Origin: Chloroflexota bacterium
GTDB taxonomy: Bacteria; Chloroflexota; Anaerolineae; Caldilineales; Caldilineaceae
DNA length: 64,000 nucleotides
Reading direction: 5' to 3'
NCBI GenBank assembly: GCA_026389895.1
Contig: JAPLGZ010000809.1
Coordinates: forward strand, 1 to 64,000
The notes under the pieces are model-generated. The model was given only the letters and a program-made list of their open reading frames with translations, did no database searches and was not told where the DNA came from. Below are positions 1,476 through 27,354 of the stretch, one piece after another (position 1 is the first letter of the stretch; the number at the start of each line of letters is the position of its first letter). The position numbers and the translations under genes were made by a program.

Positions 1476-3831
1476 ACCTAGCGATAAGCGCGTGGCAGCG
1501 AGTGATGGGCATTCGGTTAACCTAGATCAGCGGTCAACGATCAACTGGCCACTGATCCTGATTCTCTTTTTAGCCGGTCTGCTCCGTTTTTACGAGATTG
1601 GCGCCTCTAGTTTGTGGAGCGACGAAGGCAATACCTGGGCTTTGCTGGGACGCAGTTTCGGCCAGATTGCGCGTGACGCCGCCGCCGATATCCATCCACC
1701 GGGCTATTACTGGTTGCTGAAAATTTGGACGCTGCTCTTCGGCGCCAATGCTGTCGGCATGCGTAGTCTGTCTGCAGTAGCCGGCATCGCCTTGGTCTGG
1801 GTCATCTATCAGCTTAGCGTGCAACTTTGTAAAGAGGACCAACGTTGGCCGGTCACGGCGCTCTTGGCGGCCTGCTTAGCGGCGCTCAATCCTTTCCAGA
1901 TCTATTATAGCCAAGAAGCCCGCATGTATATGTTGCTGGCCCTGGAAAGCGCCGGCCTCTTCTGGGCGCTGTTGGCCCTGATGCACGCGCAACAGCATAA
2001 TTCTCATCACCCGATCAAGCCGTCGTCGCGATTTTTTGTACCGGCCTTGTTCTATCTGGTCTGTGGGATTGCTGGCCTCTGGACCCACTACAGCTTTCCG
2101 ATTGTGCTGGCGGCGGCTTGTCTCGCTTATCTGTGGCAAACGATTAAAGGTCAGAGACAAAAGGCGGGTCGTAAGCTCCTATTCTTTGTACTGCTCAATG
2201 GCATCGGGGTGCTCGCCTTTGCCCCTTGGTTGCCAACGGCGCTTGATCGCATCCGCCATTGGCCCAAAGGCGGTGCACCGGTGACTGCATTGGCTGGTTT
2301 GCAGACAACATTACAGACCCTGACGTTGGGTCCTTTCCATCAACTGGCCGCGCCACCCTGGTTTTTGCTCAGTGGGCTCTTGCCGCTGGTCGGTCTGCTG
2401 GCCTTGCGCCGCCAACCAAATGTCGTGGCGCTGGCCCTGTGGATGTTGGCGCCCGTTGGCTTAATGCTGGGCCTTGGTCTGTTTAGCGATGCTTTTTTGA
2501 AGTTTCTACTGATTGCTTCCCCGGCCTGGTGCATTGCCGTTGCCGCTGTGCCCCAAATCCTATACCGACGACCGTATCCCGTATCCCGTATCTTATATCC
2601 TTTGCTTTGCACCCTGCTCATTGCTGGCGCGTTAATCCTGGCGGCTTTCACCCTGCCCACCTATTACACCAATCCAACGGCGCGCGATAATTACGCTGGG
2701 GTGGCCCGCTATATCCAAGCAACGGGTGACGCAACAACGGATCTCGTGCTGCTGGATGCGCCTGGTCAACAAGAAGTGTGGCGGTATTACGATCCAGGTT
2801 TCCCAAGCGTAGCGCTGCCACAACAGCGTCCGCCCAATCCCGAGCAGACCGTGGCTGCCTTAGCCGCAGCTGTGCAAACGCGCCGCAACGTCTATGCGTT
2901 GTTTTGGGCAACGGATGAAGCAGACCCAGCGCACATTGTAGAGCAGTGGTTGGATCAAAATGCGTTTAAAGGCTTGGAAAGCTGGCAGGGTAATCTACGG
3001 TTTGCCGTCTATCGATTGCCGACGCAGGTCACTTGCACTGGACTGACAGCTGTCTTTGATCAACGGATCCGCTTGCTGGCGCAATGTCAACCGCAATCGC
3101 CACAACGAATAGCGGCTGGCGAAATTGCGCTGATTGGGTTGCAATGGCAAGCACTGACGCCGATCAAACAACGGTATAAGGTGAGTGTGCAATTGTTGGA
3201 TGCTCGCCAGCAGGTGATCGCCCAGCACGACAGCGAACCAGCCGGTGGTTCACAGCCCACCGACAGTTGGCTGCCGCACACCACGATCTCCGACAATCAT
3301 GGGCTAAACATTCCCTTTGGCACGCCGCCGGGTGATTACACATTGATCGCTAAACTTTATGATCAGGCCAACGGTCAACCGCTGCTCATTGGTTCAGCCG
3401 AAACTGTGCCACTTGGCCAGCTTCAAGTTGTCCGCCCACAGCTCGCTATTCCCGTTGATATTTTGCCGATCCTGAATTGGTTGCATACCTCGTCGAACGG
3501 TGTTATGTTGCTTGGGTATGATCTCTATCGCAAAGATGCCGCCCATGCCCCCGCCACGCCGATCCAGCCAGGTGATTTGGTTCACTTTACCTTTTATTGG
3601 CAAGCACCGGATCCGCTGCCCACCGATTGGGCGCAAAAAGCTTCGTTCCAGCTCAAACTAGGCCAGCAGACGCTTAGTGAATTGTTGGTGCCGAACTATC
3701 CGCTCGATCAATGGCAAGCAGGCGATCTGCTGCGCGGCGAGTTTGATCTGCCATTTGACGGCACAGACCGCACGCCCATGGTAGAATTTGCCGGAATCAA
3801 GGTCAACTTAAAGACTTTACCTGGTAAATGA
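1468..3831 (+). CDS. GT39-type polytopic membrane glycosyltransferase
   Basis: This is a 787-residue protein from the ATG at 1468; an in-frame TTG at 1456 is less likely. The N-terminal half has about ten transmembrane segments and the family's acidic first loop, SSLWSDEGNTW (~residues 34-44), followed by DIHPPGYYWLLKIW, typical of PMT/ArnT-like GT39 enzymes that use lipid-linked sugars. The C-terminal third (from ~residue 500) is soluble and beta-rich, probably extracytoplasmic. It overlaps the hydrolase gene, which suggests a glycan assembly/processing pair. The donor and acceptor are unknown. Confidence 0.75.
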
Positions 3832-3861
3832 GCCTTACCTTGCGGAAAAAACCTATTCAGC

Positions 3862-3890
3862 TTGACATAGTACTATGTTTGATATAGCAT
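3862..3890 (+). promoter_or_regulatory. Promoter with palindromic operator for the HxlR regulator
   Basis: TTGACA (3862-3867) is followed after 17 bp by TAGCAT (3885-3890). A perfect 12-bp palindrome CATAGTACTATG (3866-3877) overlaps the -35, and another CATAG half-site follows at 3888. A dimeric regulator bound here would block the promoter; autoregulation by the adjacent HxlR protein is an inference. Confidence 0.6.
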
Positions 3891-3927
3891 AGACCGTAGC
3901 AAGTTCAGGCGGAAGGGATTGGTACAT

Positions 3928-4362
3928 ATGCATGAGGATGATAATTTTACGAACCAAGACTGTACAGGACGCAAGTTTAGCGCGCAAGCGTTGTTGGCTG
4001 AGGACCCCATGTGTCCTGTCGACGTTGCGTCGCGCATTATCGGTCAGAAATGGACACTGCAAATTGTCCATGAATTGATGGACTGTGAGTCGCGGCGGTT
4101 TTGTGAGCTTCAGGAGGCGCTGGGCGGCGTCAATCCCAGCACCTTAAGCAGTCGACTCAAGATGTTGGAAGAAGAAGGTTTGATCCGGCGGATCCAAATT
4201 AGCGCCATTCCACCACATGTTGAATATAGCCTAACCAAGATGGGCGCGGAACTACACGATGTGATCGGCGAAATCAGAAAGTGGAGCCGGGCTTGGTTGT
4301 GCAATATAGAACGCCAGCAGACGATCCACGACCCAGAACGCCAACTTTTTGCTGTCCATTAA
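3928..4362 (+). CDS. HxlR-family winged-helix transcriptional regulator
   Basis: The 144-residue product begins at the ATG at 3928, 10 bp after a GGAAGGG site; the in-frame TTG at 3919 lies too close to that site. It has the HxlR signature: CPVDVASRIIGQKWTLQIVHEL, then a winged helix with FCELQEALGGVNPSTLSSRLKMLEEEGLIRR. The Cys before PVD is the residue that is redox- or electrophile-sensed in characterised members such as HypR. C-terminal residues ~105-144 would form the dimerisation helices. The palindromic promoter just upstream suggests autoregulation; targets are unknown. Confidence 0.9.
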   Translation: MHEDDNFTNQDCTGRKFSAQALLAEDPMCPVDVASRIIGQKWTLQIVHELMDCESRRFCELQEALGGVNPSTLSSRLKMLEEEGLIRRIQISAIPPHVEYSLTKMGAELHDVIGEIRKWSRAWLCNIERQQTIHDPERQLFAVH

Positions 4363-4378
4363 TCAATTCCCAATCGAG

Positions 4379-4433
4379 CCACGAATTACCCCAGATCTGG
4401 CGCTATTGCCGGTAAAACAGGGATAATTCGTGG
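4379..4433. repeat. Intergenic inverted repeat with CCACGAAT ends
   Basis: CCACGAATTACCC (4379-4391) pairs with GGATAATTCGTGG (4421-4433) with one mismatch around a 29-nt loop. There is no T-tract, so it is not a typical terminator. A second intergenic hairpin at 36567-36629 starts with the same CCACGAAT sequence. Confidence 0.7.
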
Positions 4434-4462
4434 TTTGCATGCCATAGAAAATAGCGAAGATT

Positions 4463-5110
4463 ATGATCGTCAAAGGGTTAACGGTTGGTTTATTACAGGA
4501 AAATTGTTATATATTAGGTTGCGAAACGACGCGCCAAGGCGTCATTATCGATCCCGGCGATAACGCACGCTCGATTCTTAAACTTGTGGCGCAACAGGCG
4601 CTGACCATTGAGAAAATCATCAATACACATGCCCATTTCGACCATGTAATGGCCGTCAATGCGGTGCACGCTGCGACTGGCGCGCCCTTTTATCTACACA
4701 AAGCCGATCTACCCATTTTGCACGACACGCCAGAACGGGTGCGTTTGTGGTTGGACATGGAAGTAGCGCCAATCCGCGAGCCAGATGAATTTCTGGTGCA
4801 TGGGCAGATTATTACATTTGGGCATGAAGGATTGGAAGTTCGTTTTACACCTGGCCATGCACCTGGCCATGTAGTTTTTGTTCACCATGCCAGCCAGCAA
4901 ATCTTTGGCGGCGATACGCTCTTCCAGGGCAGTATCGGTCGTTATGATCTACCAGGAGCAGATGGCCCAACGCTCTTCCAGAGTATCCGTGAGCAACTAT
5001 TAACGCTGCCCGATGATTACGTAGTCTATCCAGGTCATGGCCCGGCCACCACCATTGGGGAAGAACGGGTCTCTAATCCTTATGTCGGTCAAATTTCAAC
5101 CAATGCCTAA
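4463..5110 (+). CDS. Metallo-beta-lactamase-fold hydrolase (glyoxalase II-like)
   Basis: The 215-residue protein carries the full MBL zinc site: THAHFDH (~residue 52-58), His in TPGHAPGHV (~residue 131), Asp in FGGDTLF (~residue 151) and the last His in YPGHGPAT (~residue 192). The compact length and the opening VGLLQENCYILG are typical of the YcbL/glyoxalase II-like subfamily, which hydrolyses thioesters such as S-lactoylglutathione or related substrates. It is cytoplasmic, with no signal peptide. The natural thiol cofactor here is unknown. Confidence 0.9.
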   Translation: MIVKGLTVGLLQENCYILGCETTRQGVIIDPGDNARSILKLVAQQALTIEKIINTHAHFDHVMAVNAVHAATGAPFYLHKADLPILHDTPERVRLWLDMEVAPIREPDEFLVHGQIITFGHEGLEVRFTPGHAPGHVVFVHHASQQIFGGDTLFQGSIGRYDLPGADGPTLFQSIREQLLTLPDDYVVYPGHGPATTIGEERVSNPYVGQISTNA

Positions 5111-5133
5111 CTAACCATTAGAAGGAATTCACC

Positions 5134-6330
5134 ATGCAATCCTTGCCATTTCCTCTGCATTGTTTAGTGCCATTGCGAAAAGCAGGTTCAGGCCGCGTCT
5201 TGCTTTTTGTCAGCCTATTGCTTGTCGTCAGCACGTTAGCCGCTTGTGGGCGGTCGAGAGAGCCTGAAGGTTTGCCCACCGAAATCCCAACTTTGGTGGT
5301 TGCACCGCCATCAACACCTGAGCCAACCGCCACAACCGCGCCGGCAGTCACTGATACACCTATCGCCGCAACGGAAGCGCCCACCAGCACAGTCAGTACA
5401 ACAACGACCACCGCGCTGACAACGACCACAACGGTGACCGAAACGAGCGGCGTTACGACGAGCACTGAACCAACCACGACATCGCCGGTTACAGAGACCG
5501 CCACCGCCACGGCGACCACCCCATTAACCGAAACCGCGCCGATCACAACCACGCCAGTCGTGACAGCGACGACGAGCCTTTCAACGAGTGTTACACCAAC
5601 GACGACCGCGGTGGTAACTTCAACATCCGCAACCACCAGCACGACAGCGACACCACGGGTCTTCTTTCGCGAGCCAACCAATGGGGCCACCATTCCAGTC
5701 ACGACAACCGTGGTCATGGGCGCGGATGGCCTAAAAGTCGAGCCCGCGGGGGCCGTCGAAGCCGGCGTTGGTCACTTCCACATTTTAGAAGATACAGAGT
5801 TTATCCCGGCGGGTGATGTCATTCCGAACGATGCAACCCATTTGCACTTTGGCAAAGCGCAGTTGACCACCACCATTACGTTGACGCCTGGTATTCACGT
5901 TTTGCATTTGCAATTCGCCAACGGAGCGCATGTTGCGCTGGATGGGCCTGAATATCGTGATACGATCACAGTCACGGTCGAAGCTGGCGCGCCGGCCCAC
6001 TCCGTCCACTTTGTCACACCAATTAATGAGGCCACCGTGCCCGAAAAATTTGATGTGACGATGGCCGCCGCTGGGCTGCTGGTAGAGCCAGCCGGTGCAC
6101 CCCAGGATAATGCCGGTCACTTTCACATTTTAGTAGATCAAGATTTTGTACCGGCGGGCGAAGTCATCACCAAAGACGCCACACATCTACATTATGGGCT
6201 TGGTCAAACGCACGCCACCTTAGAACTGAAGCCGGGCAAACACACATTGCGCCTGCAATTTGCCAATGGGGCGCATATTGCGCTGGATGGCCCACAGTAT
6301 CGTGACGAGATTACAGTTACCGTCCAGTAA
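5134..6330 (+). CDS. Lipoprotein with Thr-rich stalk and two DUF4399 domains
   Basis: This 398-residue protein follows an AAGGA site. A hydrophobic N-terminus ends in the lipobox LAAC (Cys at ~residue 38), so the protein should be lipid-anchored outside the cytoplasm. Residues ~45-175 are a low-complexity Thr/Pro/Ala stalk. Two copies of DUF4399 follow (~178-282 and ~288-398), each with GHFHILxDxxFxPAG, a DATHLHxG segment and LQFANGAHxALDGPxYRDxITVTV. The regular His residues suggest metal or ligand binding, but no function is established for this family. It is probably co-transcribed with the preceding hydrolase gene, 23 bp upstream. Confidence 0.85.
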   Translation: MQSLPFPLHCLVPLRKAGSGRVLLFVSLLLVVSTLAACGRSREPEGLPTEIPTLVVAPPSTPEPTATTAPAVTDTPIAATEAPTSTVSTTTTTALTTTTTVTETSGVTTSTEPTTTSPVTETATATATTPLTETAPITTTPVVTATTSLSTSVTPTTTAVVTSTSATTSTTATPRVFFREPTNGATIPVTTTVVMGADGLKVEPAGAVEAGVGHFHILEDTEFIPAGDVIPNDATHLHFGKAQLTTTITLTPGIHVLHLQFANGAHVALDGPEYRDTITVTVEAGAPAHSVHFVTPINEATVPEKFDVTMAAAGLLVEPAGAPQDNAGHFHILVDQDFVPAGEVITKDATHLHYGLGQTHATLELKPGKHTLRLQFANGAHIALDGPQYRDEITVTVQ

Positions 6331-6345
6331 GCACAGGGATAACAG

Positions 6346-6684
6346 ATGATTTATCATATGTTGCCGGCGGTTGTCTGGGCACAACAAGCGGACACTGAAA
6401 CCTATACAGCGGAGACGCTAGCCAGCGAAGGTTTCATTCATTGCACCGGTCAACCTGAACGACTAATTTGGGTGGCCAACCGCTTCTATCGACAACAAGC
6501 CACTGATTTTCTTATTCTCTGCATTGAGCCAACCCGTGTGCAGGCCGAGATCAAGTGGGAGCAAGCCGATCAACACCTGTTCCCGCACATTTATGGACCC
6601 CTTAACCGGGATGCAATTGTCAACGTGATTAAATTTCCGCGTGATGCGGCGGGTCTCTTTATATTGCCACCAGAGCTAGCCTAA
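6346..6684 (+). CDS. DUF952 domain protein
   Basis: The 112-residue protein fits the DUF952 family over its whole length: IYHMLPAVVWAQQ at the start, the GFIHCTGQPERL motif (~residues 28-39), and HIYGPLNRDAIV near the C-terminus. The fold resembles ADP-ribosyltransferase-like proteins, but the biochemical role of the family is not established. The start ATG lies 16 bp after the DUF4399 gene, so the two may share a transcript. Confidence 0.85.
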   Translation: MIYHMLPAVVWAQQADTETYTAETLASEGFIHCTGQPERLIWVANRFYRQQATDFLILCIEPTRVQAEIKWEQADQHLFPHIYGPLNRDAIVNVIKFPRDAAGLFILPPELA

Positions 6685-6695
6685 CTGAAGGCCGA

Positions 6696-6727
6696 GTTAC
6701 AGAGAAGATTTGTTACAGAGAAGATTC
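6696..6727. repeat. Two tandem 16-bp repeats
   Basis: GTTACAGAGAAGATTT is followed directly by GTTACAGAGAAGATTC. The repeat lies 12 bp after the DUF952 stop codon, in an otherwise empty stretch. A third, weaker repetition (ATAGAAGCA) follows at about 6745-6770. Confidence 0.8.
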
Positions 6728-6965
6728 GTGACCTTCACTATAATCATAGAAGCAAATAATAGAAGCATAACTTTAGTAAGTTTTCCACAATCGCAATTCC
6801 TGGTACAATAAACCCATCAAACAGTTGCGGTTGTGGCAGGTAACAGCTAGACCATCAATGAGTACTTCAAACAATTTATTTGTCACAGAGCGCAATAACC
6901 GATGACGGCATATTCTGATAAGCTGCCAGGCTGGTTTGCCAAAGAGTCTGGTGTAAACCAAGAAG

Positions 6966-15497: not shown

Positions 15498-18400
15498 TTA
15501 TCGCTTGCTAATGACAGGTAAAAAGAGTTTACCGCCGTCAGGGCTAGGTAGACGAGCGCCAACCGGGGTTACGGTCGCATCACCACTTGGGCCGGTATCC
15601 GGGTCATCTGAAAGCACAATGATGGAATTAGCCCCTTGCTTCACCGTTACCTGCGCCTGATTGACAATCTGGTTCGTAGTTACGTTGTTGTTGACTTTCA
15701 CTTGGAAGCTAATCGTCGCCCGCCCACCACTGGCTAGCTCAGCCGCAATATGGATCTGAAGATGTGTGTCACCAGTCGCGTTGCCGGTGACATACTCACC
15801 CTGATCGGTGCGCACGGTGCCAGCCATTAAAGCAGATTGGACGCCAGGGACATCGTCAATGATAAGATCATTGACACCGGCATTGCCGACATTAAAAACA
15901 GTGAGCCGATAGAGCAAAGTATCGCCACCAGATACTTTGTCGTCATCGTCCGCATCGGTAAAGAGATAATCGATCAGCGTAACCCGTAAAGCTACTGGCG
16001 TGCTCAACAGTGTACGCGTAGCATCGCTATTGCCAACCACGGCGGGATCATCCGTCAGCACATCTGGTAATTCGCTGCTCTTGACAACACCCTGGTTCAC
16101 AATTTTGCTAATGCTCGCTGATAGCGGGCTCTTGATTTTCACCTGGAAACGAATTTGCACATCGGCGCCAGAGGCCATGACGCCAACCGCCACCTGGACG
16201 GTTTGATCGGCTACATTATTACCGCTAACGACATTTCCTTGGCTGGTTTGGATGGAATTGTTCGTGACAAGCTGGGTATTAGTATCTAGTAAATCCTGAA
16301 AATCCACATTGTTCAGGCTATTGTTGCCACTGTTGTTTAACGTAACCAGATATTCAAGGGTGTCCCCAGGGCTGGCGGCTTGATTGCCATCCGCATCTAC
16401 AATGAGCGTCGCCTGTTTGGTGGCGTTCAGCGCATATGAAACCGAAAGCTGTGTCGTGTCCGTGGCCGTATTATCCACGAGGCTAAGATCGCTGCCGTTG
16501 CTGGCGTCGTCATGAATGGTGGCTGAATTTGTCACTTGACCGACACCCAATGGCAAAGCGCTATTCACATTGATGGCAAAAATCACAGTACCTGTGGCGC
16601 CAGCGGCAAGATTGCCCACAACATAGCTACAGGCAGGGCCTGTACATGTCCAACCTGGCGAGCTGGCAGTTGCGACAAAGCTAGTGTGCTCAGGCACCGT
16701 TTCTTGGATCACAACCCCGGTTGCATCCTGGTTACCGTGGTTGGTGTAGCCCAATGTGTAGACAATATTCTCACCAGGCTTCACTTTTACATTAGAATCA
16801 TTCTTGGTCAGGCTCAAATCAGGTGCGGCATTAACAGGGGTGGCCGTGCTACTTTCATCGACATTGGCAGCCGCGCTATGCCCAATTTTGACACTATTAT
16901 CAATTTGCACCACACCAGCCGGCAAGGGATTATCCAGCTTGACGGCAAAAGTTAGTGAACCGCTGACACTACCGGCCAAATCACCACTAGCATGTTTACA
17001 AATCCCCCCTGCCAGTGTGCTGCTACAATCCCACACAGTAGCGTTGCCAACAAAACTTGTATGCGCAGGCACGGTTTCTGTAATCATCACGCCAGCAGCT
17101 GTTTGATTACCCGTATTCGTATAATTGAGCGTATAGACCAGGGTGTCACCAGGCTTGACGGTAATCCCACCATCGGTCTTCAGAATCACCAAACCAGCGG
17201 CGGCCCTAACAGGTGTTATGTCGGTGTCCGAGGCAACGTTGGCGGTGCGATTATCCCCAATGAAGACGGTATTGCTGATCTGCGTGACGCCGCTTGGCAA
17301 AGAATTCACCACCGTGACAGCAAAGTTGACGTTACCATGCGCGCCGCCTGCCACGTTGCCAATGGTAAACTTGCAAATGCTGGTAGCAACCCCACTGTTT
17401 GGAACACAGGTCCAGCCAGTGGTGCTGCTATTTGTATTAAATTTTGTATTCGCAGGTATAGTCTCTGTCAGGACTACGCCAGCGACATCTTGATTGCCAG
17501 CATTGGTATAGACTACTGTATAGATAATTGATTTCCCAGGCTGGGCAAAACTGACATCATGGCGCTTATCGAGCGACAATTTAGGCGCAGCAACGACAGG
17601 TGTCGTATCACTAGCGCTGTTGTTGCCCAGCGTTGGATCGGCGCCATTGCTATGATCATCGTTGACTGATGCTGTATTGGCAATTTGTATTATCCCTACA
17701 GGCACCGGATTAACCACAGTGACGGCAAATAGGGCTGTGCCATGCCCGCCGCCGGCCAAGGCGCCAATCGCCAGGCGACAAGTGCTGGGCGCATTTGTGT
17801 TGGGCGAGCAAATCCAGTTTGGCGAACTTGCAGACGCATTGAATTGGGTGTTGTCAGGCACGGTTTCGACCAGCACAACGCCCGTTGCATCCTGGTTCCC
17901 GGTGTTGGTATAGCTCAAGGTATAAACAATTGTACCACCAGGGACACCCGTTGCGCCGCCATCACTTTTGCTGAGCACTAAATCAGGAGCCGCGGTTAAA
18001 GGTGTCGTATCACCGGCGCTGTTGTTGCTCGGCGTTGGATCATCGCCATTGCTATGATCATCGTTGACTGATGCCGTGTTGACAATTTGCGTTACGCCAG
18101 CCAACACCGGGTTGACCACAGTGACGGCAAACAAGGCTGTGCCATGCCCGCCGCTAGCCAAGGCGCCAATCGCCAGGTGACAAGTGCTGGTCGCATTTGT
18201 GTTGGGCGAGCAAGCCCAGTTTGACGAACTTGCAGACGCATTGAATTGGGTATTATTGGGGACAGTTTCGACGAGCACAACGCCCGTCGCATCCTGGCGT
18301 CCAGTGTTGGTATAGTTCAAGCTATAAACAATTGTACCGCCGGGAGTGCTAGTCACGCCGCCATCACTTTTACTGAGCACTAAATCAGGAACCGCGGTTA

Positions 18401-19295
18401 AGGCGACGGTCGCTAAATCAGAATTGTTACTCGGCGTTGGATCATCGCCATTGACGCCGTCATCGCCGATCGATGCCGTGTTGGCAATTGAGGCAACCCC
18501 AGCCGGTGCGGGGTCACCGACAGTTACAACAAAGCTGGCATCACCACTAGCTCCAGCCGCCAAATTAGTAAAGGTATGGGCGCAAACAATATTCGCATTC
18601 TTGTCTGGTGCGCAAGACCAATAGCTGGTATCGCCAGTGAAGGTGGTATTGGCAGGCAAGTTCTCCTGGAGGGTGACATTGGCCGCGTCTTGATTGCCAC
18701 TGTTTGCATAATGCAAGGTATAGATAATACTCCCACCGGGAACAACGCTGGTGACGTTCGCCTTTTTTTTCACTGACAAATCGGGCGCGGCCACGAGTGG
18801 TATTATAAGGGTGTCGCTATCGGCATCAACCGATATAAGATCACCGATATAAGCAGTGTTGCTAATCTCAGCGACATTGACCGGCGCGGGTTTATCCACC
18901 TTAACGGCAAAGTTCACCGAACCCGATGTGCCGGTTGCCACTGAACCAATCAAGAGTATACAAGCAGTGCCAGGAGTGGGGGTAAGTCCACAATCCCAAC
19001 TATCGGTGTTATCACCCGCTATATATTGCGTGTTGGCCGGTATATATTCGGTGATTATCACCCCCAGTGCATCTGCTGCGCTGGTATTGGTATAGTCTAA
19101 TGTATAAACAATGGTGTCGCCTGGAGATACAGTAGTAACATTGGTCGTTTTATGGATCACCAGGTCGGGGGGGGCATCTCCGTAAACGTGTGAACTCACC
19201 ACAAGCGGAAACAAGAATAGAGCAAACAAGCTAATTATCAGAATATAGCCAAGTCTGCTCCACCGAAAAGCAAAGGCCGGGGCATGATACTGCAT
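15498..19295 (-). CDS. Secreted surface protein of nine DUF11-type repeats
   Basis: This 1265-residue protein has a basic N-terminus and a signal helix (~residues 15-35, cleavage after VYG or nearby). Seven repeats of about 125-134 residues follow, each starting with a pattern like DLxLxKxDGGxxxxPGxTIVYTLxYTNTGNQDAxGVVLxETVP, then two divergent repeats beginning at ~1020 (DADGNQAASPGDTLEYLVTLNNSGNN) and ~1150 (DADDDDKVSGGDTLLYRLTVFN). The repeats are Ig-like DUF11 domains that build stiff surface fibres. Repeats three and four are nearly identical at DNA level with a 402-bp period (~17600-18400). The protein ends GGKLFLPVISKR, similar to the end of the protein at 22813-24717. The start ATG follows an AGGAA site. 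Confidence 0.88.
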   Translation of the reverse strand: MQYHAPAFAFRWSRLGYILIISLFALFLFPLVVSSHVYGDAPPDLVIHKTTNVTTVSPGDTIVYTLDYTNTSAADALGVIITEYIPANTQYIAGDNTDSWDCGLTPTPGTACILLIGSVATGTSGSVNFAVKVDKPAPVNVAEISNTAYIGDLISVDADSDTLIIPLVAAPDLSVKKKANVTSVVPGGSIIYTLHYANSGNQDAANVTLQENLPANTTFTGDTSYWSCAPDKNANIVCAHTFTNLAAGASGDASFVVTVGDPAPAGVASIANTASIGDDGVNGDDPTPSNNSDLATVALTAVPDLVLSKSDGGVTSTPGGTIVYSLNYTNTGRQDATGVVLVETVPNNTQFNASASSSNWACSPNTNATSTCHLAIGALASGGHGTALFAVTVVNPVLAGVTQIVNTASVNDDHSNGDDPTPSNNSAGDTTPLTAAPDLVLSKSDGGATGVPGGTIVYTLSYTNTGNQDATGVVLVETVPDNTQFNASASSPNWICSPNTNAPSTCRLAIGALAGGGHGTALFAVTVVNPVPVGIIQIANTASVNDDHSNGADPTLGNNSASDTTPVVAAPKLSLDKRHDVSFAQPGKSIIYTVVYTNAGNQDVAGVVLTETIPANTKFNTNSSTTGWTCVPNSGVATSICKFTIGNVAGGAHGNVNFAVTVVNSLPSGVTQISNTVFIGDNRTANVASDTDITPVRAAAGLVILKTDGGITVKPGDTLVYTLNYTNTGNQTAAGVMITETVPAHTSFVGNATVWDCSSTLAGGICKHASGDLAGSVSGSLTFAVKLDNPLPAGVVQIDNSVKIGHSAAANVDESSTATPVNAAPDLSLTKNDSNVKVKPGENIVYTLGYTNHGNQDATGVVIQETVPEHTSFVATASSPGWTCTGPACSYVVGNLAAGATGTVIFAINVNSALPLGVGQVTNSATIHDDASNGSDLSLVDNTATDTTQLSVSYALNATKQATLIVDADGNQAASPGDTLEYLVTLNNSGNNSLNNVDFQDLLDTNTQLVTNNSIQTSQGNVVSGNNVADQTVQVAVGVMASGADVQIRFQVKIKSPLSASISKIVNQGVVKSSELPDVLTDDPAVVGNSDATRTLLSTPVALRVTLIDYLFTDADDDDKVSGGDTLLYRLTVFNVGNAGVNDLIIDDVPGVQSALMAGTVRTDQGEYVTGNATGDTHLQIHIAAELASGGRATISFQVKVNNNVTTNQIVNQAQVTVKQGANSIIVLSDDPDTGPSGDATVTPVGARLPSPDGGKLFLPVISKR

Positions 19296-19918: not shown

Positions 19919-22810
19919 ATGGCCCCAACCCAAATCAACCAAATTGGTCCTTTCCAGATCCGCGAAGAAATCAGGCGCGACGCCTTCTCCACCACCTACC
20001 TGGCCTTCGACCCAAAACAGAAAAAAACATTAGCTCTGCGAATTCTAAATCCTGAGCTGGCCCGTGATCCGCTCTATGGACAGCGATTTATCATGGCTGG
20101 GCAGGCGGCAGCCGCCTTACACCAAGACGATATTGTTCCAGTGTATGAAGCTGGCGAAATTGATGGGCACTATTACATTGTCTCGGAACTCGTCACTGGG
20201 CAAACATTGCTTAGCGTGTTGATACGACGGCAAAAGTTACTGTCGCCCACCGAGGTCACTGGCATTCTCCAGCAGATTGCGGCTGGGCTAGATTATATCC
20301 ATAGTCAGGGCCTTTTATACCTTGATCTTAACTTTCGCGACATTTTGATCAGCGAAGCTGGCCATGCCATGCTAACGGATATTGGCATGCATGAACTCAG
20401 ACAAGTTGCGTCGCCACCTGGACAGACTGAGCCAGAAAACATATCGGCTTTCATAGCCCCAGAGCAAGCGCGCGGTGATGCCCAAATTGATCACCGCGCA
20501 GACATCTATAGCCTGGGCGTGATTGGGTATGCCATGCTCGTGGGCAGGCTGCCGTTTGAATCAGCAGACCCAGCCATTCTGAAACGCGAAATCATCGAAC
20601 AGGCGCCGCCCGATCCTAGCTCGCTCAACCCACGTATTCCGGCCCACGTCGCTACGATCCTCACGACAGCGCTGGCCAAAGACCCGGCGCAACGCTATAC
20701 ATCCGCTGGGCAATTTGCCAGCGTGCTCACCCGCAGCTTGCTCTGGGAAACAGATGCGGAAGCGTTGGCTTTGTTGGCCGGCCCCCCCGATCCGGCTGAA
20801 AGTGAGCCGCAGCCACGATCAAGACGAGGCCTGGCTATTTTTGCGACAGCCCTCGTAGTTTTGGGTGCGCTCTTGGCAGGTACGCTCTTTGCCAGACCGG
20901 CCTTGCTCGCAACGTTGGGTTTTACCGATGGATCGAATGCTGGTAGGCTCTCAACCCAAGTGCTTACGCCAACGCTCCAATCAAGCGTAATTGTGACAGC
21001 AACAGAGACTGCGGATAGCAATGCACTCGCTCAAGCGGCAACGATGACGGTGGCAAGCAGTATTAGTGCGCCAGTTGAGGAGATTACAGCCACCTTAGCG
21101 GTGACACTTGTGACAGCGAATACCAGTACGCCCATGCCAACGGTGCTAGCCACCACAACCGTCACAGCACAGTTGGTTTTGGTGCCTACACCAATCCCGA
21201 CCAATACCCAGACGAATACAGTGCAAGCGGCGAATACTACGGCCGTCGAAGGGCCAGCGGTTATTACACCAACCTTGGCAACGACGAGCACAAATCCACT
21301 AACCACTGCAAATACATTAATAACCACTGCAAATACATTAACGCCAACGCTGCCGCCCTCGGCGACGGCAACGGTGACACCTGTACCAACGGACACAGCA
21401 GCACCGACGGCAACGCCAACCAATACAAATACGCCCGCACCGACAGCCACGTCTACCAATTCGGCGACACCGCTGCCAACTGCCACGGCGACCATTGCAC
21501 CAACCAATACGCCGTTGCCAACGGCTACGACGATCATCGTGCCGACCAATACACCGCTGCCAACTGCCACGGCGACCATTGCTCCAACCAATACGCCGTT
21601 GCCAACGGCTACGACGATCATCGTGCCGACCAATACGCCGTTGCCAGCCGCCACAGCGACAGCGACAAATTCGCCGGTGCCGACCGTCACCAACACAAAT
21701 ACGACGCTGCCAACAGCCATTGCCACCGCGACTGCTTTGCCAACGAATACGGCACTGCCAACAGCAACAGTGACGCCGCTACCCACGGCAACAGCAACAG
21801 CCCTACCAACGGCGACAGCAACACTGCTACCAACAGAGACCGCGACACCGCTACCTTCCGCAACAGCTACATCGCTACCGACGGAAACGTCAACAACATT
21901 GCCAACGGCGACAGCAACACCGTTACCAACGGAGACAGCCACAGCCCTACCAACAGCGACGCCGTTGCCTATTGCCACCGCAACCGACACACCGTTGCCA
22001 ACCGCCACACCGACCTTTACAGCTACCTCAACCCTAATACCAACGCCATCGCCAACGTTCACCAGTTTGCCAACAGCGACGGCCACACCGCAACCGACCG
22101 CAACAGCGACGCGCGCCCCCATTCCACCATCATTTGACGCCACAGCGCTGCGACAACCCTTAAATGACGGTACAGCTAGAATGCGCGGGGCTGGCCAACC
22201 AGGCTCGACAGTACAAGTTTTGGTCAATGATGCGGTAGCTGGCACCACCGTTATAAGACCCAATGGCGCTTGGACGCTAGCTGTTGTGTTGGGTAAACCA
22301 GGCAGCTATCAGCTTGGTGTACGCGCCGTTTATGCCAATGGCAAAGTCATCCAAGCCACCACACGACCGATCACGGTAACTGTGCCCGCGCCAACACCGC
22401 TCCCTACTCCCACGGTCACGATTGGTAGTATCCAGTTGGTGGCCCCAGGGAACAATGCCGCCAATTCAGGGTTAGAAGAGTTCCGGTGGACGGCTAATTT
22501 CACACCAGATGCCGGCTTAGCTTTTGAAGTCGTCTTCTGGAAGGCCGGTCAAGATCCACTCGTCAACGGCTTTGGTTTAGCCGCGCCGACAATAAACAAT
22601 AAAGTGAATGTTGATTTGAATGCACTCGATGCCAGTTTGGGCAAATTGTTGGAGCCGGGCGATTATCAATGGGGAGTCCTCCTTGTGCGTGTATCGCCTT
22701 ACCAACGTGTCCAATTTATGGGTCAATCCCGCAACTTCCGTTTTGACCGAGCGGGCAATGACAATGGCGGTGGCGGCTCATCGGGTGGTGGTCAGAATTC
22801 AGGTGAATAA
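19919..22810 (+). CDS. Membrane-anchored pseudokinase with Thr/Pro stalk and Ig-like C-terminus
   Basis: Residues ~11-275 have a Ser/Thr protein kinase fold (PknB type): APE at 180-182, DIYSLGVIGYAMLVGRLPFE, and the family's C-lobe. Key catalytic positions are altered: no glycine loop (EEIRRDAFSTTY), ATP-binding Lys is Arg41, the helix-C Glu is Ala60, HRDxKxxN reads YLD-L-N-F-R-D (Asp136 kept, Lys to Asn138, Asn to Asp141), and DFG is DIG. It is therefore probably a pseudokinase. One transmembrane helix (~304-326) is followed by a ~390-residue extracellular Thr/Pro/Ala stalk with repeats, then an Ig-like domain (~740-825) and a further beta domain (~840-950), and a Gly-rich tail. The start is two bases after an A/T-rich leader, with no clear ribosome site. 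It lies 2 bp before the next gene. Confidence 0.8.
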   Translation: MAPTQINQIGPFQIREEIRRDAFSTTYLAFDPKQKKTLALRILNPELARDPLYGQRFIMAGQAAAALHQDDIVPVYEAGEIDGHYYIVSELVTGQTLLSVLIRRQKLLSPTEVTGILQQIAAGLDYIHSQGLLYLDLNFRDILISEAGHAMLTDIGMHELRQVASPPGQTEPENISAFIAPEQARGDAQIDHRADIYSLGVIGYAMLVGRLPFESADPAILKREIIEQAPPDPSSLNPRIPAHVATILTTALAKDPAQRYTSAGQFASVLTRSLLWETDAEALALLAGPPDPAESEPQPRSRRGLAIFATALVVLGALLAGTLFARPALLATLGFTDGSNAGRLSTQVLTPTLQSSVIVTATETADSNALAQAATMTVASSISAPVEEITATLAVTLVTANTSTPMPTVLATTTVTAQLVLVPTPIPTNTQTNTVQAANTTAVEGPAVITPTLATTSTNPLTTANTLITTANTLTPTLPPSATATVTPVPTDTAAPTATPTNTNTPAPTATSTNSATPLPTATATIAPTNTPLPTATTIIVPTNTPLPTATATIAPTNTPLPTATTIIVPTNTPLPAATATATNSPVPTVTNTNTTLPTAIATATALPTNTALPTATVTPLPTATATALPTATATLLPTETATPLPSATATSLPTETSTTLPTATATPLPTETATALPTATPLPIATATDTPLPTATPTFTATSTLIPTPSPTFTSLPTATATPQPTATATRAPIPPSFDATALRQPLNDGTARMRGAGQPGSTVQVLVNDAVAGTTVIRPNGAWTLAVVLGKPGSYQLGVRAVYANGKVIQATTRPITVTVPAPTPLPTPTVTIGSIQLVAPGNNAANSGLEEFRWTANFTPDAGLAFEVVFWKAGQDPLVNGFGLAAPTINNKVNVDLNALDASLGKLLEPGDYQWGVLLVRVSPYQRVQFMGQSRNFRFDRAGNDNGGGGSSGGGQNSGE
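21471..21638 (+). repeat. 84-bp tandem repeat in the Thr/Pro stalk
   Basis: Two nearly identical 84-bp units (21471-21554 and 21555-21638) and the start of a third encode a 28-residue module made of two 14-residue halves, NTPLPTATATIAPT and NTPLPTATTIIVPT. The pattern suggests length variation by slippage or recombination. Confidence 0.85.
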
Positions 22811-22812
22811 CT

Positions 22813-24717
22813 ATGTATGATTTTGTCAGAAAAAATTCTCTTATTCAAAATAGCCAATGGAGTCTGCTGAGCATTGCCCTCATAGTCGTGGCGCTCATTC
22901 TGATCTGGACGGCCACAGCACGCTCTTCACCGCTGCCAGCCGACATTCAGACTTGGACAACCGCTGCGCCCCTTCCAGAAGTGCTAGCCAGTCGCAACGC
23001 AATTGCCAAAGGGGACAGGGTCTATGTGATTGGTGGCAAAAATCCCACCGAGAAACCAAGCGCCCAAGTCTATACGGCCCAAGTCCAGACGGATGGTTCG
23101 TTGGGCGCTTGGGCTAGCACAACCCCGCTGCCGGTGCCGGTCTATCTACACGCAGTCGCGGCCACGGATAGCCAACTCTACCTCATCGGCGGTTGGGATG
23201 GCAGCCGGACGCGCGCAGAGGTCTGGCGGGCGCCGTTTGTTGGCAATGGATTAGGGGCTTGGGAAAAGGTTAGTGACTACCCGATCTCTATCGACTTGCA
23301 TGAGGCGACGATTGTCAACAATCGCTTGTATGTGATCGGCGGTTGGAATGGCACCGCGGCCTTAAACAAAGTGTACTATGCGGATATTCAGGCGACTGGC
23401 GGCTTGGGTGCGTGGACGCCGGCCCTCGAGCTACCCACAAAGTTATACCGGTTGTCCGTAGCCTCGGCCAATGGTGTTATTTATGTGACCGGCGGCTATG
23501 ATGGCAGCGCGGCTCAATCAAAAGTCTATTATACGAAAGTGAATGATAATGGTTCATTAGGGGGCTGGCAACAGACCACCGAGTTGCCCGACACCCGTTA
23601 CTACCAGGAAACCGTGGTCCAAGATGGAAAACTCATCGTGTTGGCAGGCAAAAATGATGTCGTGGAATACAATAGCGTCTATGCCGCAACGATCAATGCC
23701 AATGGGGCGCTCGGTAGTTGGAACGCGCAAACAGCCTTGCCCGAATCGCTCTATCGCTTTGCAGCGGTCACGATCGCCAAGAATGGCTCCGAGTTTATCT
23801 ACCTATTTGGGGGTCTGCATAATCTGGATTACCGGCAGAATGTCTATCATTCAACGGTGCCTAAGCCGCCAACCCCCACCAGCACACCACTCCCTGGTCC
23901 AACCGCAACCCCCGTGCCTAATATTGCGCTACAGTTGCAAAATAGCCCGCGCCAGTGGGTTGCCCCAGGCGAAGAGATCGTCTATACAATCCTTTATCAA
24001 AATCAGGGTGTGAAAGATGCCAAAGATGTGACAATTACCGGGGTGATCCCTGGCGATGCCGAACTTGTTCCCGACAGTGTGACCGCTGGCGCTGGCACCA
24101 CGTTTGTGATCAACGGCACGAGCGCAGGTGATACCATTGTTTGGCATATAGCCCAGTTGGACCCGACAACCAAAGGGACCGTGGGCTATCGCGTACGGCG
24201 TCTGGTGGCCACGAACACAGGCCCCCAGCGCGCCCTAGGTATTGTCAGTGCTGGGCCACAAGCAGCCAGCGCAGGCACGCCCATCGATTACCAAATTACG
24301 ATCACGAATTTTGTACCGATCACGTTAACCGATATCTCGGTCTTTGATATTTTGCCAGAAGGGGCGCGTTATGTCAGTGGCGCTAGTCAGGCGCCCACGA
24401 ATAACATCGTGCAATGGACAGTGCCAACATTGGCGCCGGATCAGGTGATTACCCTAAGTTTGACGGTCATGGCCACCCAATCGCTGATCAATAGCAACTA
24501 TTGGGTTACAGCCGAAGAAGGCGCCAGCGCTCGAGGGACAGCCATCGTGATTACCCAGGTCGATAACACACCTTTGCCAGCCAAGGGTGATGGGGTGGCC
24601 ATTGTCAATGATCAGGCAAAGATTACATGGCAAGCCAATGGGCAGATCAATGAACGCGTTAGCAATGTAGTTATCAATCCCGCTTTTCCGGTTTTCTTAC
24701 CCGTCGTGAAAAACTAG
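22813..24717 (+). CDS. Surface protein with kelch-type propeller and DUF11 domains
   Basis: This 634-residue protein has an N-terminal signal/anchor helix (~17-37). Residues ~45-350 hold about six kelch-like blades, each with a pattern such as LYVIGGWNGTAALNKVYYADIQATGGLGAWT, which would fold into a beta-propeller. A Pro/Thr linker (~352-372) leads to two DUF11-like domains (~378-460 and ~475-560). The C-terminus reads FPVFLPVVKN, similar to the end of the DUF11 protein at 15498-19295. It starts 2 bp after the pseudokinase gene, so the two should be co-expressed. A sugar-binding role for the propeller is possible but not shown. Confidence 0.85.
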   Translation: MYDFVRKNSLIQNSQWSLLSIALIVVALILIWTATARSSPLPADIQTWTTAAPLPEVLASRNAIAKGDRVYVIGGKNPTEKPSAQVYTAQVQTDGSLGAWASTTPLPVPVYLHAVAATDSQLYLIGGWDGSRTRAEVWRAPFVGNGLGAWEKVSDYPISIDLHEATIVNNRLYVIGGWNGTAALNKVYYADIQATGGLGAWTPALELPTKLYRLSVASANGVIYVTGGYDGSAAQSKVYYTKVNDNGSLGGWQQTTELPDTRYYQETVVQDGKLIVLAGKNDVVEYNSVYAATINANGALGSWNAQTALPESLYRFAAVTIAKNGSEFIYLFGGLHNLDYRQNVYHSTVPKPPTPTSTPLPGPTATPVPNIALQLQNSPRQWVAPGEEIVYTILYQNQGVKDAKDVTITGVIPGDAELVPDSVTAGAGTTFVINGTSAGDTIVWHIAQLDPTTKGTVGYRVRRLVATNTGPQRALGIVSAGPQAASAGTPIDYQITITNFVPITLTDISVFDILPEGARYVSGASQAPTNNIVQWTVPTLAPDQVITLSLTVMATQSLINSNYWVTAEEGASARGTAIVITQVDNTPLPAKGDGVAIVNDQAKITWQANGQINERVSNVVINPAFPVFLPVVKN

Positions 24718-24793: not shown

Positions 24794-25474
24794 TTAGGTA
24801 ACGGACCACTCGCCTTGCTCCTGGTAATAGTCACAATAGGCTTGCAGTACACAAAGTTCGCACCGCGGCGCCCTGGCCTGACAGGTTTGGCGACCGTGGC
24901 GGATTAGATTGATATGAAGGGCGTAAAAATTCTCGGGCGGCAATAGTTCCTCCCAAATTGCCTTAATTTTAATGGGTGGCGCGCGCCGATCACTGATCCC
25001 CAAACGCTGGCTAATGCGCTGGACATGGGTGTCTACTGGAAATGCGCCGCGGTTAAAACAGAAAAGCAGGACAATACTAGCCGTTTTATGCCCAACACCA
25101 GGAAAGCTGGTCAGATAGGTAAAGGCTTCATCTACGGACATCGCGGCCAAGTGACTTAGATCATACTGCCCCTGCTCACGCTGAATCCTTTCCAGCACGG
25201 CAACAATATTCGGGGCTTTTTGGTTATACATACCCGCAGGGCGAATCGCCGTTTTAATGGCTTCTAATGGTGCAGTGCGGATAGCGTCCCAATCATCACT
25301 GAAAGCAGTTTTTAGTTGCTCAAACGCCCGCCCACTGTTAACATCATTCGTATTCGCGCTCAGGATGGTTAGAATCAACTCATCCAATGGATCCTGGCCT
25401 GGTTGCCAGATGGGTTCACCATAGCCGTCAATCAAGCGCTGATAGATTATCTGGGCTTTTTCTGAAAGATCCAC
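24794..25474 (-). CDS. nth: Endonuclease III
   Basis: The enzyme removes oxidised pyrimidines from DNA and nicks the abasic site. The 226-residue protein has the helix-hairpin-helix LTSFPGVGHKTA with the catalytic Lys, the catalytic Asp in VDTHVQRISQRLG, and the C-terminal [4Fe-4S] ligands C-x6-C-x2-C-x5-C (CQARAPRCELCVLQAYC). Length and motifs are those of a full, active enzyme. It is convergent with the kelch gene and its 5' end borders the insertion sequence. Confidence 0.93.
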   Translation of the reverse strand: MDLSEKAQIIYQRLIDGYGEPIWQPGQDPLDELILTILSANTNDVNSGRAFEQLKTAFSDDWDAIRTAPLEAIKTAIRPAGMYNQKAPNIVAVLERIQREQGQYDLSHLAAMSVDEAFTYLTSFPGVGHKTASIVLLFCFNRGAFPVDTHVQRISQRLGISDRRAPPIKIKAIWEELLPPENFYALHINLIRHGRQTCQARAPRCELCVLQAYCDYYQEQGEWSVT

Positions 25475-25770: not shown

Positions 25771-26176
25771 AGAACAACCTAACAAAATTTACGTTTCAGA
25801 CCATTCAATCGTCTATAGTTGCCAATACCATATCGTCTTTTGTCCTAAGTATCGGCGCAAGGTCTTGATCGATGGCGTTGACGTTCGACTGAAAGAGCTT
25901 GTGCTTGACAAGCAAGACGAGTACGGCTATCAAGTCATCGCCCAAGAAGTCTTGCCTGACCATGTTCACCTGCTTTTGGCGCTTGACCCAAGAGTTGCGC
26001 CGGTTGATGTTGTCGGAAAAATCAAGGGCTATCTTTCGCATGAACTGCGTGAACAGTTCCCCTGGCTGAAAAGCAGAATCCCCAGCCTATGGACACGAAG
26101 CAAGTTCATATCGACCGTCGGTTCGGTTTCGCTGGAAGTCGTCAAGTTGTATATCGAGAACCAGAAGAACGTTTGA
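25763..26176 (+). CDS. tnpA: IS200/IS605 Y1 transposase TnpA
   Basis: The 137-residue protein is a single-strand DNA HUH transposase. The HUH motif is DHVHLLLAL (~residues 72-80) and the nucleophilic Tyr is in VKLYIENQ (~residue 130). The typical strand YSCQYHIVFCPKYRRKVL is present. It has the usual length, so the transposase is probably functional. Its start lies in a 50-bp duplication. TGATG overlap links it to tnpB. Confidence 0.95.
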   Translation: MQIEQPNKIYVSDHSIVYSCQYHIVFCPKYRRKVLIDGVDVRLKELVLDKQDEYGYQVIAQEVLPDHVHLLLALDPRVAPVDVVGKIKGYLSHELREQFPWLKSRIPSLWTRSKFISTVGSVSLEVVKLYIENQKNV

Positions 26177-27354
26177 TGCTGATCCCAAAAGCCTTTAAGT
26201 TTCGCCTGTATCCCAACAAGACCCAACAAGCTGCCCTGGCTATCCAGTTCGGGCATGTGCGCTTTGTGTACAACCATTACCGCGCCGTGCGTGAGGGCTT
26301 CTATATCGATACAGGCATAGGCTTGAACTACAACGATTGTGCCATGGATTTGGCGGATATTCTGAAAGTCGATAATCCGTGGTTGAAAGAAGCTGACAGC
26401 CAAACCATGCAGCAAGCGTTGAAAGACCTTGACCGTGCCTATGTGAATTTCTTTGACGGTCGGGCTGGGTATCCAGCCTTTCACAGCAAGCACGGCAAGC
26501 AAAGTATTCGCTATCCTCAGCGGTTCAAGGTCAATGGCAAGCGGGTCTATCTGCCCAAAGTGGGCTGGGTTAAGGCTGTCATCCATCGCGATATTGAAGG
26601 CCAGATGAAGAATTGCACCGTCTCGAAAACCAAGAGCGGGCGCTACTTTGTCAGCATCCAATGTGAAATGGAAGTCGAAGATCCAACACCAAACCCAGCC
26701 AAGATCGGGATTGACCTGGGCTTGAGTGTCCTTGTTGCCCTTTCCAACGGGGACAAGCGTCTCAAACCCAAGCACTTGTACAAAAGTCAACGCCGTTTGA
26801 AGATTCGCCAACGGCGCTTGAGCAAGAAAGTCAAGGGCAGCAATGCCCGCAACAAAGCCCGTTTGCCGCTGGCTATCCTGCATGAGCGAGTCGCCAACCA
26901 GCGCAAGGATTTCCAGCACAAGTTGAGCCGTGAACTGGTCAATGCCTACGGTACGCTGTCGTTTGAATCGCTGAACATTGCAGGTATGGTCAAGAATCAC
27001 AATCTGGCTAAGGCCATCAGCGATGCAAGCTGGGCGCAATTCGTAAGCTTCTGCGAATACAAGGCAGCTTGGGCGGGCGGGCAAGTCTTGCGGGTTGACC
27101 GCTTCTTTCCTTCGTCTAAGTTGTGCAGCGATTGCGGACATAAAAACAAATCCTTGACCCTGAACATTCGGCAATGGGTCTGCCTGAATTGTGGATCGCT
27201 CCACGACAGGGACACCAACGCCGCGATTAATATTTTGAACCAAACTACGGTGGGAGTCACCGAAAGTCACGCATCGGGATGGTCGTCAGACCGATATGAA
27301 CGGCGCTTGTATGCTCTTCAGCCCTTGAAGCCCAACAGCTTTAGCGTTGGGTAA
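26176..27354 (+). CDS. tnpB: TnpB RNA-guided nuclease of IS605
   Basis: TnpB cuts DNA opposite a guide RNA made from the element's right end, which favours retention of the element. The 392-residue protein has an N-terminal OrfB helix-turn-helix (MLIPKAFKFRLYPNKTQQ), the RuvC residues Asp180 (IGIDLGLS), Glu264 (LSFESLNIAGM) and Asp346 (HDRDTNAAINIL), and a zinc ribbon with C317xxC320 and C336xxC339. All catalytic residues are kept. Its 3' end and the following hairpin are where the guide-RNA scaffold is expected. An ATG at 26176, overlapping the tnpA stop, is the natural start. Confidence 0.95.
   Translation: MLIPKAFKFRLYPNKTQQAALAIQFGHVRFVYNHYRAVREGFYIDTGIGLNYNDCAMDLADILKVDNPWLKEADSQTMQQALKDLDRAYVNFFDGRAGYPAFHSKHGKQSIRYPQRFKVNGKRVYLPKVGWVKAVIHRDIEGQMKNCTVSKTKSGRYFVSIQCEMEVEDPTPNPAKIGIDLGLSVLVALSNGDKRLKPKHLYKSQRRLKIRQRRLSKKVKGSNARNKARLPLAILHERVANQRKDFQHKLSRELVNAYGTLSFESLNIAGMVKNHNLAKAISDASWAQFVSFCEYKAAWAGGQVLRVDRFFPSSKLCSDCGHKNKSLTLNIRQWVCLNCGSLHDRDTNAAINILNQTTVGVTESHASGWSSDRYERRLYALQPLKPNSFSVG
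27331..27351 (+). ncRNA. Right-end hairpin, likely 3' part of the TnpB guide RNA
   Basis: CCCAAC-AGCTTTAGC-GTTGGG forms a stem that overlaps the last codons of tnpB. In known IS200/IS605 elements the TnpB-associated RNA ends with this structure and the guide continues into the flanking DNA. Only the hairpin is seen directly; the RNA is inferred. Confidence 0.5.

Follow-up and report, generated by a model that had tools for sequence, protein, structure and literature searches.

What purpose remains for a membrane-anchored protein kinase once its catalytic machinery is gone? This question is raised by a gene in a 64,000-nucleotide stretch (the window) of contig JAPLGZ010000809.1, from a Chloroflexota bacterium of the family Caldilineaceae. 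A sequence-only reading of this gene had described a surface pseudokinase that senses or scaffolds and is encoded beside a kelch/DUF11 surface protein. The gene, its encoded domains, and its neighbors are listed in Table 1.

Table 1. Coordinates of the pseudokinase gene, its domains, and adjoining genes in the window.
Feature	Position	Strand	Description
Pseudokinase ORF	19919-22810	+	963 aa, frame open throughout
Cytoplasmic pseudokinase domain	19919..20758	+	~residues 1-280; Pfam, 74-kinase alignment, AF2 model
Single transmembrane helix	20828..20893	+	~residues 304-325; judged from sequence letters
Thr/Pro/Ala-rich stalk	20924..22120	+	residues 336-734, ~400 aa; composition
Ig-like beta domain	22121..22390	+	residues 735-824; weak Big_6 match
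C-terminal beta domain A1	22412..22756	+	residues 832-946; without Pfam family
Kelch protein with two DUF11 domains	22813..24717	+	634 aa; Pfam; predicted exported
DUF11 protein with nine repeats	15498..19295	-	1265 aa; divergent; Pfam DUF11 x9
Endonuclease III-like gene	24794..25474	-	HhH-GPD; right flank common with G004 (L157)

A kinase fold with altered catalytic motifs

The order of domains suggests a cytoplasmic kinase fold, one membrane-crossing helix, and a stalk and beta-domain tip outside the cell. By sequence reading, the transmembrane helix is flanked by RSRR, which would place its positive side inward. The stalk is composed of ~32% Thr, 15% Pro, and 17% Ala when counted over residues 336-752, and it is followed by an Ig-like domain and by the terminal domain termed A1, in agreement with the earlier description of a ~390-residue Thr/Pro stalk carrying two beta domains. 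The Ig-like domain matches Big_6 at E=1e-4, which is under the Pfam cut-off, and its single-sequence AF2 model has a pLDDT of ~75-80 across most residues. For A1, Pfam returned nothing at a threshold as loose as E=1. Since the single-sequence AF2 model of the whole ectodomain is poor (pLDDT 57), its fold matches are usable only as "Ig/FN3-like."

Residues 18-262 match the Pfam Pkinase profile with 107.4 bits (cut-off 31.7), and the AF2 model of the kinase domain, built on a 20-row alignment, has a pLDDT of 90.7 and a pTM of 0.88. Mycobacterium tuberculosis PknB is the closest solved fold to this model (TM 0.83 by query length), and a sequence search for solved structures returned PknE (2h34) and PknB (1mru/6b2p) as the closest entries. 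The profile match and the bilobal fold of the model together identify a protein kinase fold of the PknB type.

Alignment of the window copy with 73 other kinases places Arg41 at the position of the beta3 Lys, Ala60 at that of the helix-C Glu, Asn138 at that of the catalytic-loop Lys, and Asp141 at that of the catalytic-loop Asn. The glycine loop is replaced by R-R-D-A-F-S, compared with G-R-G-G-M-A in the active sisters, and Y134-L-D136 occupies the position of the HRD motif. Retained in the window copy are Asp136, Asp154-Ile-Gly, and Ala180-Pro-Glu182 (APE). The substitutions at these four catalytic positions, the loss of the glycine loop, and the retained motifs had been named in the sequence-only reading, and all of them are borne out by this alignment of 74 kinases. 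With four of the six catalytic residues and the glycine loop gone, and with the HRD Asp and DFG Asp remaining, the protein does not classify as an active Ser/Thr kinase; the replacement of Lys by R41, along with losses in all three counterparts described below, classifies it by sequence as a pseudokinase. Misalignment or chance was considered as a source of the motif loss and rejected, as alignments from different sequence sets are concordant. The window copy may still bind nucleotides to some extent, since Asp136 and Asp154 are kept and ATP binding has been predicted for pseudokinases of the DYD family that have a Lys-to-Arg change and lack the helix-C Glu.

Catalytic loss across four genera

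Three counterparts, from other genera of the same family (G012, G010, and G004), have the same domain architecture and the same kelch partner. A DUF11 protein of ~1200 aa is encoded nearby in all four genomes. In G012 (L159) and G010 (L160), the genes for the pseudokinase, the kelch/DUF11 protein, and the ~1200-aa DUF11/Ig protein all point in the same direction. G004 follows the gene order of the window, namely a DsbD-like gene, a small membrane protein, the divergent DUF11 protein, the pseudokinase, kelch, and endonuclease III. The G004 copy is split inside the repetitive stalk over two contigs, C622 with the kinase end and C116 with the ectodomain end, which from their synteny are inferred to be one gene. 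The Ig-like domain is common to the window and G004 copies (51% identity) and absent from those of G012 and G010.

The beta3 Lys position, HRD motif, and DFG motif read K/HEG/DFC in G012, R/HKG/DFC in G010, and Y/HGQ/GIG in G004. When the six catalytic residues are given in the order beta3 Lys, helix-C Glu, HRD Asp, catalytic-loop Lys, Asn, and DFG Asp, the window copy has R A D N D D, G010 has R A G T N D, G012 has K A G T N D, and G004 has Y E Q T E G. Thus, the HRD Asp is lost in all three counterparts, the beta3 Lys in two, and the DFG Asp in one. Orthologs with intact VAIK and HRD motifs had been named in advance as the finding that would overturn the pseudokinase claim; none of the three counterparts has both, and the claim stands. 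It follows that catalysis was lost by the lineage as a whole rather than by a single gene, and an oddity of one genome is excluded. No ATP or Mg site is common to all four copies, making an ATP- or Mg-dependent function shared by them unlikely. The kinase fold is nearly constant in length in the four copies (285, 286, 285, and 286 residues), and the fold-bearing residues, comprising the APE, the D195 motif, and R259, are retained. Judged from their sequences, the four copies show a lineage that lost catalysis in differing combinations of residues and kept the fold.

To set these losses in context, 74 kinase domains were compared, taken from the genome that contains the window and from the family and class to which it belongs. 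Of these, 62 have every one of the six catalytic residues, a single kinase lacks one, and 11 lack at least two. Since 62 of 74 kinases are fully intact, the degenerate pattern reflects neither chance nor ordinary drift. In a maximum-likelihood tree, 10 of the 11 degenerate kinases form one clade, with a support (91/73) that is under the tree's starred level and with long branches among its rows. This clade adjoins the intact kinases L083, L084, L090, and L091 inside a starred set (99/96), and the degeneracy label is clustered on the tree (0 of 500 shuffles gave a value as low). Among the active relatives, L083 lies in the window's own genome, is 41% identical, and is cut off at a contig end, while two L084 kinases and L090 are A1-bearing sisters in G010.

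Five further kinases with HxN and DFD motifs (L086, L087, L088, L092, and L187) were considered as orthologs and rejected, as the tree places them on a sister pseudokinase branch. This second branch spans five genomes, including that of the window (C582), and carries HRN or HHN for HRD and DFD or DFS for DFG. Its members have a Thr/Pro-rich segment and an ectodomain with a WD40-like propeller, and ABC transporter permease genes adjoin the pseudokinase in L087 and L092. A separate kinase-like protein of 309 aa, L180 (G004:C134), has none of the six catalytic residues; in the tree, a long branch connects it to the pseudokinase clade.

The kelch partner and the A1 module

The kelch/DUF11 gene starts 2 bp past the pseudokinase stop and directly follows the pseudokinase in all four loci. 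This short gap and its conservation suggest that the two genes are co-transcribed. The kelch partner is 37% identical over its full length to those of G012 and G010 and 50% identical to that of G004 over the N-terminal part. The 1265-aa DUF11 protein is 40% identical to its G004 equivalent over 1217 aa, with repeat-based values of 29-36% for G012 and G010. The endonuclease III-like gene is outside the pseudokinase system. Shortly downstream of the operon, at window positions 26089-27354, lies an IS605 OrfB/TnpB-like gene (OrfB_IS605, Cas12f1-like TNB).

The kelch/DUF11 protein ends in ...FPVFLPVVKN. Short hydrophobic C-termini of this kind (FLPVVKN, IYMPAISR, VYLPVMQR, LFLPVISKR, and VFLPLVSN) occur on kelch and DUF11 proteins, at window positions 24714 and 15498 and on the surface proteins of L159, L160, and L157/L199. 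By its appearance, the motif looks like a surface-sorting signal.

When 396 genomes of the class were sampled, 25 contained A1. A sample of 301 genomes across the phylum returned it beyond the class in none, the window's own genome being the sole match. It terminates proteins with a transmembrane helix and stalk, the other end of which is a kinase, a PP2C phosphatase, or a FecR-type domain. Intact kinases are joined to A1 in L084, L090, L135, L138, L139, and L132, and PP2C phosphatases in L132, L140, and L141. FecR-type proteins with A1 are found in L129 and L131, where FecR was assigned by sequence reading; a relative of these proteins in L159 has a Pfam FecR match. The A1 gene is usually adjoined by a gene for a secreted protein of a propeller type, which may be kelch (the four loci and C409), RCC1 (L090 and L135), or LVIVD (L132). 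Exceptions are L084, with InlB-type repeats, and L140, with no known domain in the neighboring protein. Because A1 lacks a Pfam family and has been shuffled onto kinases, phosphatases, and FecR-type proteins alike, it offers a useful way into the study of surface sensing in these bacteria.

Two loci combine A1 with further signaling genes. In L132 (G010:C73), a kinase (2911-4755) and a PP2C phosphatase (4902-6803) are encoded in tandem, and both have an extracellular A1 of one type. A VWA-FHA protein is encoded before this pair and an LVIVD-repeat protein after it; the kinase and phosphatase may be opposing enzymes that read the same signal. In the window's genome, L158 (G000:C409:1-14000) and L200 (C409:13000-32500) cover an extracellular contractile injection system (eCIS) cluster with genes for the sheath, two tube proteins, baseplate J and V, Tail_P2_I, Pvc16, eCIS_core, and AAA. 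At the end of this cluster are FHA, VWA-FHA, a degenerate kinase (VAIK changed to AIE), a degenerate PP2C with A1, and a kelch protein related to that of the window. These last genes may represent a control set of kinase, phosphatase, and FHA proteins that is no longer active.

Proposed role and relation to known systems

Conservation differs between the two ends of the protein. In all six pairs of pseudokinases, A1 is more conserved (42-60% identity) than the kinase domain (30-52%). The reverse holds in all six active pairs, drawn from one kinase lineage, with kinase/A1 identities of 87/84, 55/38, 53/40, 57/30, 43/28, and 44/29%. A cross-lineage active pair, G010 actC and actD, is 50% identical in A1 and 34% in the kinase, the pattern that shuffling of the ectodomain would produce. 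Between the window and G004, the most syntenic copies, identity is 34% for the kinase, 46% for A1, 51% for the Ig-like domain, 50% for the kelch part, and 40% for the DUF11 protein.

With catalytic machinery lost in all four genera and the fold, tip, and neighbors conserved, a non-enzymatic receptor or anchor is the most likely role. The reading favored here, with moderate confidence, is that of a retired PknB-type receptor kinase that now works with its kelch partner as a non-catalytic transmembrane receptor or anchor. In this proposal, the Thr/Pro stalk would carry the beta-domain tip through the envelope, and A1, as gene order suggests, would bind or display the secreted kelch/DUF11 protein outside. 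The cytoplasmic kinase fold would serve as a non-catalytic platform for docking or dimerization, which could either relay tip occupancy to a partner protein or fix the surface complex to the cell. The earlier suggestion that the protein senses or scaffolds is supported, as something inferred, by an ectodomain more conserved than the kinase and by the conserved kelch partner.

The same conservation pattern bears on the other explanations. The pseudokinase might resemble HER3, using its kinase fold to pair with an active sister of the same ectodomain type and regulating that sister allosterically. Back-to-back dimers are described for PknB-type kinases and for the MviN pseudokinase (PMC12599244), and active A1 sisters are encoded in G010 (L084 twice and L090) and a 41% identical active relative, L083, in the window's genome. 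Such an arrangement is considered unlikely, given that the kinase is less conserved than the ectodomain, contrary to expectation for a conserved heterodimer interface. In addition, no intact clade sister is among those listed for G012 (89% complete) and G004 (95%), leaving an obligate active partner unsupported. A low kinase identity, with 34% between the window and G004 falling under the kelch, Ig-like, A1, and DUF11 figures, and lost catalytic residues that differ by lineage would also suit a purely structural anchor, an inert plug under relaxed selection that provides a cytoplasmic stop for the stalk and so fixes the kelch/DUF11 layer. With such a plug, shrinkage or loss of the domain would be anticipated, yet ~286 residues persist without net length change at ~65% divergence, with the fold-bearing residues kept, making this explanation slightly less likely again.

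A cryptic or atypical enzyme, with a nucleotide-binding or reprogrammed fold as in SelO, SidJ, or WNK, could make use of Asp136 and Asp154, which are present with the APE in the window copy. SelO and SidJ have other activities without the canonical residues, and an Arg at beta3 does not preclude ATP binding (PMC12599244). However, Asp136 is gone in three of the four copies, G004 lacks Asp154, the glycine loop is missing, and the four sequences show no other conserved residues that might form a catalytic set, so that this route is improbable. Least credible is a functionless gene decaying toward a pseudogene: several catalytic residues are missing, but 963 codons are open, the architecture and operon are kept in four genera, and the ectodomain is 42-60% identical. 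The open frame and conserved architecture led to the rejection of a pseudogene.

Beyond the receptor or anchor proposed for this locus, it is possible, if on the doubtful side, that a propeller-partnered A1 receptor module was uncoupled from phosphorylation at least twice in the family, in the dead kinase of four genera and in the degenerate PP2C of the eCIS cluster in the window's genome. If so, dead enzymes would now anchor surface machinery in the membrane or act on it as allosteric adaptors.

PknB/PASTA-type kinases, such as M. tuberculosis PknB and PknE and StkP, resemble the window protein in having an N-terminal kinase fold, one transmembrane helix, and extracellular domains. The window protein differs in its altered catalytic motifs, Thr/Pro stalk, Ig-like and A1 domains, and kelch/DUF11 partner. 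It is not a PASTA kinase, as it has no Pfam match to PASTA domains and scores 179 bits against NCBIfam PknB_PASTA_kin (cut-off 450). Bacterial STK pseudokinase families comprise ActPs1-3, GLW, CP1, DYD, and DLHK, often with a C-terminal transmembrane region, and have been reported for the most part in actinobacteria, proteobacteria, firmicutes, and cyanobacteria (PMC12599244, a recent review). A term search of the main text of that review returned no mention of Chloroflexota, and literature searches found no published Chloroflexota pseudokinase or kelch-kinase pair. The beta3 Lys-to-Arg change and missing helix-C Glu of the window copy recall the DYD family, whose members with these features can be predicted to bind ATP (PMC12599244). 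However, the window has D-I-G and its counterparts DFC or GIG, which sets them apart from DYD, and YLD (window), HEG, HKG, and HGQ at the HRD position set them apart from GLW. The ectodomain and operon of the window also differ from those of ActPs1-3, GLW, DYD, CP1, and DLHK.

Scaffold roles are described for MviN (ActPs3) and EssB/YukC (PMC12599244). EssB/YukC of type VIIb secretion is likewise a membrane-anchored pseudokinase scaffold with a degraded glycine loop and motifs (PMC12599244); compared by description, it differs in being part of T7SSb, with no stalk, A1, or kelch described. On the partner side, the GhlA grappling hook of Litorilinea aerophila (Chloroflexota) has DUF11 repeats arranged as a beads-on-a-string surface filament (PMC13319060). 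GhlA has 6,596 aa and 49 DUF11 domains, whereas the window neighbor has 1,265 aa and nine and is linked to a pseudokinase. Bacterial transmembrane pseudokinases are recognized, most of them without a known partner or ligand. Here, lineage-wide catalytic loss is combined with a conserved extracellular module and a conserved adjoining candidate ligand, and the purpose of a dead receptor kinase therefore becomes a direct binding question.
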